Source of the DNA: Saccharomonospora xinjiangensis XJ-54
GTDB lineage: Bacteria; Actinomycetota; Actinomycetes; Mycobacteriales; Pseudonocardiaceae
Direction of reading: 5' to 3'
Assembly: GCF_000258175.1 (NCBI RefSeq)
Contig: NZ_JH636049.1
Span: 3,945,482-4,009,481, forward strand
DNA length: 64,000 bases
This document shows, in pieces, positions 20,434-23,188 of the stretch. The position numbers and the translations under genes were made by a program. Every line of letters starts with the position of its first letter. Position 1 is the first letter of the stretch. Under the pieces are notes generated by a model. The model had not been told where the DNA came from, made no database searches, and was given only the letters and a program-made list of their open reading frames with translations.

Positions 20434-21813
20434 GTGAACCTGTTCCTGTTCGACGACGACACGGTCCCGCTTCCTCCCGTCACCACCAGCCAGGCCGTTC
20501 AGCGTGTGTTGTCGGTGTTCGACGCGCTCGCTCGTGGCCTCGGTCCCGCTCCTCCGGTGCGGTTGAGGTGCAGGGAGGACGTCCTCATGGACGCCAAGGC
20601 CGTGGACGAGCGGGTCAGGGCAGGGGAGCGGATGTCGTTGGTGGGCATCCTCGTCGCCGCACCGGAGGTGCCCGTGGTCGCGGAGAGGCTGGCGCAGGCA
20701 GGCGCGGTCGTCGCGGGGCACACGGTTCCTGGCGCGCCGTCGCCGGGCAGTGAGGTGCGGCTGGAGACGCTCAGCAAGCTCGACGCGCTGCTGGTGACCG
20801 AGCCACCGGCTTCCTGCCGTGGCGTGGTGGGTTTCGTGCCGACGCGGGGATTGCTGCCTGCGAGCGGCTCAGGAATCACCACGGTGCTGGCGCGGGACGC
20901 GGCGGTCGCCCAGCGGGTCGCTGCCGCGGTCACGGGCCCCGATCCGCGGACGACCTCGGCGGGGTTCAGCAGACACTGGCCCGACTCGGTACGGCTGAGT
21001 GCCGGTGAGCACCCGCGTATCGCGGTGCCGGATCGCGCGTTCCTCGCCGAGCTGGGCAGGGTGGAGGCGGCAAGGCTTGCCGCGACGGCCGACACGCTGA
21101 GCGTGGCGGGGGCAACGACGCACGAGGTGGAGCTTCACGGCGCGGGCGGGCTGTGCCGCAAGCGCGCCGCGGTCGCGCTCGGCGACCATGAAGCGCTCCT
21201 GTTGCCGCTCGGCACGGGTCTGTGCTCGCTCACCCGCCTCGCCACCCGGCTCGACACCGCCGCCGTCCTTCTCCCCACCCGCGACGGGGGAGGTGTGGGT
21301 CTGCTGGCCAAGCCCTTCGACGACCAGGTCGTCCTCGACCTCGCGGGGCTGCTCACCGGGTCGCAGGCTTCAACGCCGTACCCGGATGTGGGGGTGCGGC
21401 TCATCGCCTTCGGCTCGTATCTGCGGGGGCAGCCTCGTGCGGCCGATCTGGAACGCGTGGGCGCGCGGTTCACCGGCTTCGCGACCACGTCACGCCACTA
21501 CCGCCTGCTGCTGATCGAGCACGACCCACCGGAGGCCGGTGTGGTGCCCGCGAACCGGCCGTCGGAGGGAGGGCCGCTGGTGGGCGAGGAGTGGCTGCTG
21601 TCGCCCGCTGCTCTCGGGGAGTTCGTCGCGCGTCTGCCTTCGCCGATGCGCCTCGGCACCGTGGAGCTGGCCGACGGGACGAGCGCGCCCGCGATCCTGT
21701 GCGATCCCTCGGTGGCCGAGCGGAGTGTTGATCTCACCGCCTGGGAGTGCTGGCGTGCCTACCTGCGCCACCTCAGCGCGGTACGACCCGTCGCCGCGCG
21801 AGCCGGGAGTTGA
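20434..21813 (+). CDS. Degenerate amidase / allophanate-hydrolase-like protein
   Basis: A 459-aa protein. Residues about 315-455 match the C-terminal domain of allophanate hydrolase (AtzF/DUR1): [57 protein letters not shown], and a [12 protein letters not shown] end. The N-terminal half keeps scattered amidase-signature scaffold ([45 protein letters not shown]). It lacks the Lys in VKDN and the whole Gly/Ser-rich GGSSGGS block of the Lys-Ser-Ser triad, so amide hydrolysis is unlikely. GTG 20434 has AGGAAAGGA upstream. Its 3' end overlaps pyrD on the other strand by 41 nt. Function is unknown. Confidence 0.75.
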
Positions 21814-22837
21814 TCCGCCGCACCACGCCGGGGCCGTGCAGGGCGAAGGCGCTGTAGAGCTGGAGCAGGCTCGCGCCCGCGTCGAGCATCCGGAGCGCGT
21901 CGTCGGGCCCGCCGATCCCCCCGACGCCGATGATCGGCAGCGTGTCGCCTGCCTGATCGTGCACGAAACGCACGACCTCCACCGAACGCGCGGCGAGCGG
22001 CCGCCCGGAAAGGCCGCCCTGTTCGGAGACGAACCGTGCGTCCTCAGGCGCGAGGCCGTCCCTGGACAGGGTGGTGTTGGTGGCGATCACGCCGGCGACC
22101 TCGTGTTCGAGGCAGACGTCGAGGAGTTCGGCGATCGCGTCGAAGGTGAGGTCGGGGGCCACCTTGACCAGCAGCGGAACCGGGCCGCGCCCGCTCGCCG
22201 CCGCGAGGTCGCGCGAGGTACGGGACAGTTCGGCCAGTAGTTCGGTGAGCGCACCGCGGTCCTGGAGCGAGCGCAACCCTGGCGTGTTCGGGGAGCTGAC
22301 GTTGACCGCGACGTAGTCGGCGTGCGGGTAGAGGGTCACCAGCGATTCCCGGTAGTCGGAGATCGCGTTCTCGACAGGGGTGACCTTGGACTTGCCGATG
22401 CTGATGCCGATCGGCACGTCGGGGGTTCCCGTGGTGGCGAGCCGCCGGGCGAGCGCGGCCGCACCGGCGTTGTTGAAACCCATGCGGTTGAGCACGGCGT
22501 CACTGGCTTCGAGTGTGAACAGCCTCGGTTTGGGGTTTCCCGGCTGTGCGTGGCGCGTGACGGTGCCCACCTCGACGAACCCGAATCCGAGCGCGGACCA
22601 GGCGTTCAGCGCGCGACCGTCCTTGTCCATGCCCGCGGCCAGTCCCAACCGGTTCGGAAAACGGATGCCGAACACGGTGCACGGGTCGTCGATCCGGTAG
22701 TACCGGCGCAGCGCGGTGGTGAGTGGACCGGCCGCGCTCATCCTGGCCAGCACGCGCACCGTGCGCTCGTGCACGGTTTCGGCGTCCAGCCGGTTGAGGC
22801 GATACAGGGTGGGGCGGACGATCCTGTCGAAAAGCAC
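21773..22837 (-). CDS. pyrD: Dihydroorotate dehydrogenase (quinone), class 2
   Basis: PyrD oxidises dihydroorotate to orotate at the membrane, passing electrons to quinone. The 354-aa length and N-terminal helix ([27 protein letters not shown]) are those of class 2. FMN-binding and active-site motifs are [28 protein letters not shown] (catalytic Ser), [16 protein letters not shown] and [12 protein letters not shown]. It is preceded on the same strand by a leader with a peptide ORF and hairpins, so it is probably attenuated. Its 3' end overlaps the amidase-like gene tail to tail. Confidence 0.96.
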
Positions 22838-22911
22838 GGCACCCAGTATCCGTCATGGGGGCCGGTGTTCCCGCCGCAGGTGGGCGGCCGGAGGAGCGGG
22901 CCGATGACCGC

Positions 22912-23121
22912 GGGGAGAAAGGAAGAAGCCCCCGGTGCGACTCCCGACCGTCGTCAGCCGTTCGGGCCCGGGGCGGACCTGTTCCCGGGAGCACTGGGGG
23001 CCGGTGGCTGCCTGGTATTCACCGGCAGACACACGTGTCAACTGGGTGGCCCGTGTGTGCTGTCAGCGGACAGCCACCTCACGAGTCCTGTAGCTATTCA
23101 CCGTTGGACCACCTCCTTTCC
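22912..23121 (-). promoter_or_regulatory. pyrD leader: peptide ORF, competing hairpins and terminator-like stem
   Basis: Read on the minus strand in the 351-nt gap between nei2 and pyrD. A strong AAAGGAGGTGG (23119-23109) precedes a 12-codon ORF (23101-23063). Its last codons can form GCTGTC-CGCT-GACAGC (a local hairpin over the stop codon) or pair GGTGGCTG with CAGCCACC further downstream. Between them lies an ACACACG/CGTGTGT stem. A GC-rich stem (CCCCGG with CCGGGG, inner CCCGA with TCGGG; 22973-22930) followed by CTTCTTCCTTTCT looks like a terminator about 95 nt before pyrD. Ribosome position on the peptide would choose between structures. Regulation is inferred; the signal is unknown. Confidence 0.6.
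23063..23101 (-). CDS. Leader peptide of pyrD, 12 aa
   Basis: GTG 23101 to TGA 23063 encodes MNSYRTREVAVR. The ribosome binding site is nearly a perfect match to the 16S tail, unusually strong for this genome and for such a short frame, which supports translation. The end of the ORF is itself half of an RNA hairpin. I recall similar short ORFs ending TREVAVR in other actinomycete leaders, but I cannot confirm which genes they precede. Confidence 0.6.
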   Translation of the reverse strand: MNSYRTREVAVR

Positions 23122-23188
23122 CGTGTACCAGCCACGCTAGGCGAGTCGCGGCCGAGGCGGCAACGAATTTTCCCGCCGGCGACCGGCG

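Follow-up and report, generated by a model that had tools for sequence, protein, structure and literature searches.

The window, by which we mean the whole 64-kb stretch of Saccharomonospora xinjiangensis XJ-54 DNA analysed here, carries on its minus strand a pyrD gene for dihydroorotate dehydrogenase (21773..22837; Pfam PF01180, E 1.6e-77). On the same strand, before pyrD and separate from it, lies an RNA element (22920..23126) that cmscan matched over its full length (model positions 1 to 184 of 184) to the Rfam family RF02471, Ms_IGR-5, with 86.5 bits (E 9.4e-18) against an Rfam cut-off of 45 bits. This was the sole family found by cmscan in the window. The sequence preceding pyrD represents a catalogued small RNA, for which Rfam gives the label "Actinobacteria sRNA" and nothing more. 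Read along the minus strand, the locus comprises an A-tract, the hexamer TTGCCG, an 18-nt spacer, the hexamer TAGCGT, the predicted RNA 5' end, a Shine-Dalgarno sequence, a short open reading frame (ORF) and a hairpin over its stop codon, and then a long-range helix, a GC-rich stem, a U-rich tail and finally pyrD. An earlier, sequence-only reading had described a short ORF with a strong ribosome binding site, competing pairings and a terminator-like stem. All of these are present, and they are conserved far beyond close relatives. That reading had missed a pseudoknot, a 17-nt complement to the 16S rRNA tail, a promoter box and the membership of a catalogued RNA family. Beyond what the Rfam entry holds, the open frame of 12 to 15 codons, the 16S-tail complement, a covarying helix (P2) and the covarying pseudoknot are new.

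RF02471 had matches in 79 of 100 family genomes, 192 of 296 class genomes and 40 of 198 phylum genomes; 25 of these 40 lay outside the class, 5 of them above the Rfam cut-off. A pattern scan of named genomes returned at least 120 stretches, and the 80 matches listed include Nocardioides, Micromonospora, Frankia, Cellulomonas, Rhodococcus and Amycolatopsis. A distant search for the family yielded no phage match and one short match in a plasmid collection, from Nocardia farcinica, with 27% covered. When 33 genomes without a family match were searched by pattern, one divergent candidate emerged (genome G363, locus L174), which has a long Shine-Dalgarno sequence and GTGAGGTG and is without GGAC. 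Another genome, G085, holds two RF02471 matches, one of them in locus L074. For comparative analysis, 140 loci of the class were combined with that of the window (141 loci, 75 genera, 25 families); of the 25 loci found beyond the class, 20 served as outgroups. This gave 161 elements, all retrieved through the family model, so that their resemblance to it is partly by construction.

The RNA is predicted to have its own promoter, with TAGCGT (23134..23139, minus strand) as the -10 box. All 141 loci have the pattern TANNNT at a fixed place, 21 to 24 nt upstream of the Shine-Dalgarno core, versus 0 to 1 of 138 to 141 loci in seven control windows; outside the class, the strict pattern was seen in 8 of 20 loci only. 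Sequence and column profile point to TTGCCG (23158..23163, minus strand), 18 nt from the -10 box, as a putative -35 element. Upstream of it lies an A-tract (23168..23171, minus strand), which we take to be UP-element-like; an AA pair is found there in 130 of 141 loci, compared to 7 of 140 in a control window. The 5' end of the RNA is predicted near 23126.

The ribosome binding site, AAAGGAGGTGG (23119-23109, minus strand), is part of a 17-nt segment (23105..23121, minus strand) that is complementary to the 3' tail of 16S rRNA if G-U pairs are allowed and that includes the Shine-Dalgarno sequence. Measured in all cases against the 16S tail of the window genome and not that of each species, the complement spans 16 to 20 nt in 160 of 161 elements and 12 nt in the remaining one. 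At the position facing a uridine of the 16S tail, the 141 loci have G in 130 cases, A in 10 and T in 1. The sequence TGGATCACCTCCTTTCT occurs once in the window genome, at the end of the 16S gene. The 14-mer AAAGGAGGTGRTCC is found exactly twice in the genome, at the RNA element and on the antisense strand of 16S, and one further genomic site matches it with one mismatch. We also considered a pairing of the Shine-Dalgarno GGUCC with GGAC in the ORF as a conserved structure and rejected it: 89.6% of positions were paired, the mean after re-dealing was likewise 89.6, and 352 of 1000 re-dealings reached the observed value. This pairing can be drawn in many sequences, without covariation.

The ORF runs from GTG to CGC TGA (23101-23063, minus strand) and comprises 12 codons for the peptide VNSYRTREVAVR. 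All 161 elements have an open frame here (134 of 12 codons, 13 of 13, 13 of 14 and 1 of 15); within the class sample, it was called by script in 131 of 141 loci and the other ten were read by eye. Freedom from stops is in part given by the definition of an ORF, the actual content of the result being that an open frame follows from a correctly spaced start every time, and over this stretch a stop triplet interrupts the other two frames in 126 and 149 of the 161 elements. The start codons are TTG (70), ATG (50), GTG (30), CTG (5), ATT (3), ATC (2) and ACG (1), and the stops are TAG (138), TGA (19) and TAA (4). ATG, GTG or TTG accounts for 150 of the 161 starts, and the assignment in the 11 others is our own reading. 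No in-frame ATG, GTG or TTG is available in L014, L161, L163, L164 and L168, where ATT, ATC, CTG or ACG stands at the place of the start, and the same situation is seen in L156, L158, L159, L169, L170 and L172. Insertions and deletions within the frame amount to three bases in the class (134 frames of 12 and 7 of 13 codons), and the spacing between the Shine-Dalgarno sequence and the frame varies there by single bases. Codons 2 to 4 have a G+C content of 32% versus 71% in the flanks, as would be expected of an easily opened start region.

Conservation within the frame is concentrated on GAG GTG, which is without synonymous change in 131 of 131 ORFs and present as GAGGTG in 141 of 141 class and 20 of 20 outgroup loci. 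Codons 2 to 4 are not conserved, codon -1 specifies Arg, Ser, Gly or His, and in outgroups the Thr-Arg ahead of Glu-Val is replaced by Pro-Arg or Thr-Leu. Since GAG GTG is invariant and the other residues vary, the RNA and the act of reading it seem to be kept under selection rather than the peptide. The codon table of the 131 ORFs revealed no run of one amino acid and no control codons for a target pathway; the guess of the sequence-only reading that the peptide is no amino-acid sensor fits these data, residues varying wherever the RNA is free to vary. The mini-ORF is probably translated in S. xinjiangensis XJ-54. Ribosome-protected reads on MS_IGR-5 were reported in Mycobacterium abscessus and M. 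smegmatis in the accessible part of PMC4974804, which also cautions that many non-coding RNAs carry such reads without clear evidence of translation. The published reads fit translation of Ms_IGR-5 and do not prove it.

Expression of the RNA itself is documented in the accessible parts of several papers: RNA-seq supports Ms_IGR-5 in Streptomyces lividans, where it is listed as SLIV_16488 (PMC8079986), in S. avermitilis it is among 139 sRNA transcription units whose start and end have been mapped (PMC8780764), and in M. smegmatis the transcript ncMSMEG15794c overlaps it (PMC10454040). The accessible part of PMC3828370 does not mention IGR-5. A small ORF in the 5' untranslated region of Rv0813c, described in the accessible part of PMC11133741, was considered and proved to be another ORF than that of Ms_IGR-5. 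In the open-access library searched, by name and by idea, no paper turned up with a description of the ORF, P2 or pseudoknot of Ms_IGR-5.

Helix P2 connects the ORF with the 3' part of the RNA. Its 5' strand, GGUGGCUG (23071..23078, minus strand), lies in codons 8 to 11, and its 3' strand, CAGCCACC (23003..23010, minus strand), at the foot of the terminator, where it pairs with GGUGNNNGN of the ORF. The long-range pair GGTGGCTG/CAGCCACC (23078-23071 with 23010-23003, minus strand) had already been noticed in the sequence-only reading, and comparison bears it out, because it covaries. Among the 141 loci, 96.5% of cells were paired, versus a mean of 92.0 and a maximum of 93.3 after re-dealing of the 3' strands, so that 0 of 1000 re-dealings reached the observed value, in a measure that used an anchor blind to the ORF and shuffles that ignore the tree. 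With one locus per genus (75 loci) the value was 95.3 (mean 90.3, maximum 91.9), and in the five non-anchor columns it was 93.6 (mean 85.6, maximum 87.9). Sliding the strand dropped pairing to 28 to 62%. A poorer, partly mis-anchored alignment of 139 loci gave a smaller excess, 90.9 against a mean of 86.7 and a maximum of 88.4. In single outgroup sequences P2 seldom exceeded what shuffling gives, with 2 of 20 below 5%. The 5' stem of the Rfam model scarcely covaries (94.0 versus a mean of 93.7 and a maximum of 94.1, reached by 7 of 1000), a small excess that we do not count as absence.

A local hairpin over the stop codon (23059..23074, minus strand) competes with P2. Its arms, GCUGUC (23074-23069) and GACAGC (23064-23059), share GCUG with P2, and the two structures are mutually exclusive. 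Of the 141 loci, 110 allow a stop-codon hairpin with at least 5 Watson-Crick pairs, compared to 49.6 expected after shuffling of the 3' side. For the element in the window, the lowest-energy fold includes P2, and imposing the local hairpin raises the energy by 4 kcal/mol (-101.3 versus -105.3). Taken alone, this element folds with an energy only mildly out of the ordinary (z -1.76; 7 of 200 shuffles did as well), and the structural case therefore rests on comparison. A GAAUNCC-like motif lies unpaired between the stop hairpin and the 3' strand of P2 (23011-23020 in the window), and it recurs in the class and in outgroups.

Downstream of P2, sequence and comparison identify a GC-rich, terminator-like stem, P4 (22928..23001, minus strand), whose arms at 23001-22991 and 22938-22928 enclose a further hairpin, P4a (22967..22989, minus strand), with a GUCC loop. 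P4 is followed by TTCTTCCTTTCT, and the U-rich tail after it (22916..22927, minus strand) has an average of 4.1 U per 12 nt in the 141 loci, against a background of 1.7. A YCAUNUCC-like motif was observed 3' of P4 in class loci and in L161 to L168, even where another GC-rich hairpin ends the stretch.

The P4a loop also takes part in a pseudoknot with the ORF, in which GGACU of codons 5 and 6 (23084..23088, minus strand) pairs with GGUCC in the loop (22975..22979, minus strand), the core being GGAC with GUCC. Because the anchors fix GGA and UCC, two columns are informative; over these, with shuffles that ignore the tree, 139 loci scored 84.2 versus a mean of 68.6 and a maximum of 76.6 (L045 and L120, which have no loop, were left out). 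AUCC accompanies GGAU in 5 of the 6 loci with GGAU, in two families, and A is found at that position in 2 of the 133 loci with GGAC. A fifth pair can form in 70% and a sixth in 37% of class loci. Outside the class, six pairs are found in the P4a loop in 11 of 20 loci, with all four outer pairs (C-G, G-C, U-A and A-U) represented, and one outgroup locus has a swapped core, UCGACC/GGUCGA. In the other nine outgroup loci, the script placed the best hexamer elsewhere or found it with fewer pairs.

The sequence-only reading had taken the element for a leader-peptide attenuator of pyrD. The competing hairpins that it invoked are present, and the order of RNA, terminator-like stem and pyrD on one strand is found here and in five other loci. 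However, 135 of the 141 loci, which extend 1.5 to 3 kb beyond the element and in some cases less, have no pyrD downstream, and the six loci with a same-strand downstream pyrD belong to four genera of one family. What is conserved outside close relatives is the RNA, not its link to pyrD. Moreover, in L049 another ORF, presumably acetyltransferase-like, separates the RNA from pyrD. In the five adjacent copies, no ribosome binding site was seen before the GTG of pyrD, and in three of the five (that of the window, L034 and L055) a -10-like GATACT stands 7 nt before it. In the window, GATACT lies at 22845-22850 and the GTG at 22837 on the minus strand. GATACT at this distance, without a ribosome binding site, suggests a separate promoter for pyrD, and the window pyrD may be transcribed leaderless from it. 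We thus regard attenuation of pyrD as highly improbable. With neighbours labelled by homology to eight query proteins, no other gene took the place of pyrD: none is constant across the 141 loci, and a consistently linked same-strand target, as an attenuator would have, was not found among them. A convergent neighbour labelled as pdxH-like (PF01243) or nitrobindin-like (PF08768) is present in 63 of 141 loci. In 45 of the 141, from 11 families, no more than 510 nt separate the ORF stop from the end of such a gene, and there is therefore little room for a target gene.

The explanation that we favour, and hold to be probable, is that RF02471 is a free-standing small RNA, with its own -10 box and a frame of 12 to 15 codons, that likely works as a ribosome-gated switch. 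It draws together what comparison of sequences establishes, namely that the element belongs to RF02471, carries a promoter box, an open frame, a 16S-tail complement, P2 and the pseudoknot, and has no constant neighbour. Pairing with the 16S tail would capture a ribosome and ensure strong loading. The nascent RNA would first form the local hairpin over the stop codon; once finished, it would close via P2 and the pseudoknot, tying the frame to its own 3' end. The closed form would be present while no ribosome is on the frame, and a ribosome reading to the stop codon would open both P2 and the local hairpin. The selected trait would be the act of translation and not the peptide. Since no gene follows reliably, the output most likely concerns how stable the RNA is or what it does in trans, and not expression of the next gene.

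The main rival is a ribosome trap, in which the RNA would hold small subunits or initiation complexes via the whole single-stranded 16S tail and would lower or buffer the free ribosomes, helped by mostly weak start codons and by a pseudoknot immediately in front of the ribosome as it initiates. The length of the 16S-tail complement (17 nt here, 16 to 20 nt in nearly all elements) and the restriction of the exact 14-mer to this site and the 16S antisense strand speak for it, as do the non-ATG starts in 111 of 161 elements and the position of GGAC, whose first letter is base 14 in the 12-codon frame, close to where the front edge of an initiating ribosome lies. We nevertheless consider it unlikely, a conserved open frame that leads to a fixed stop codon being unneeded by a pure trap. 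A related notion, possible and put forward tentatively, is a phylum-wide ribosome-capture RNA that would seize the whole 16S tail, hold the subunit at the pseudoknot-locked mini-ORF and sense or buffer the supply of initiating ribosomes. That the frame encodes an acting peptide of 12 to 15 residues with its own target, making this a dual-function RNA, would agree with a frame open in every element and with the invariant Glu-Val; residues that vary where the RNA is free to (codons 2 to 4, codon -1 and the outgroup changes of Thr-Arg) and a GAG GTG that is never replaced by synonymous codons, which points to the RNA, make this improbable. The RNA could also be purely structural and the frame a by-product of its conserved sequence, given that pairing or RNA sequence holds GAGGTG, GGAC and the two strands of P2 fixed. 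The start and the open codons 2 to 4, however, lie outside those strands and yet stay in frame in all 161 elements despite varying spacing and length, and we give this last possibility very little credence.

A ribosome-gated switch would share traits with several known systems. In infC, the gene for IF3, an AUU start codon is used; strong ribosome binding and the unusual start codons of some Ms_IGR-5 members are alike, as an analogy only, and unlike in infC no protein gene follows the start. SgrS is a dual-function sRNA. Like SgrS-type RNAs, which the accessible part of PMC11133741 names, Ms_IGR-5 combines a free-standing RNA with a short ORF, but its peptide is not conserved as such. The ilvB1 attenuator of M. 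tuberculosis, in so far as the accessible part of PMC13236596 describes it, resembles Ms_IGR-5 in its short ORF, competing hairpins and terminator-like stem. It differs from Ms_IGR-5, which has neither a constant downstream gene nor sensor codons and whose ORF has its pairing partner in the loop of the completed terminator hairpin; the fold would therefore close after the stem has formed. The Rfam entry itself concerns the same RNA, as the full-length match over the cut-off indicates. It lists an sRNA without an ORF, and its structure line, in our reading, shows no pairs for the 3' strand of P2 or for the pseudoknot loop and has the Shine-Dalgarno sequence paired with codons 10 and 11.

RF02471 is among the widest small-RNA families of actinobacteria, and the papers that we found treat it as an sRNA only. 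Its case warns against naming leaders after their neighbours. With its ORF, 16S-tail complement, P2 and pseudoknot, the family becomes testable as an attenuator-like RNA that lacks a target gene. Should ribosomes gate it, RF02471 may report on translation initiation across the phylum that contains the main antibiotic producers.
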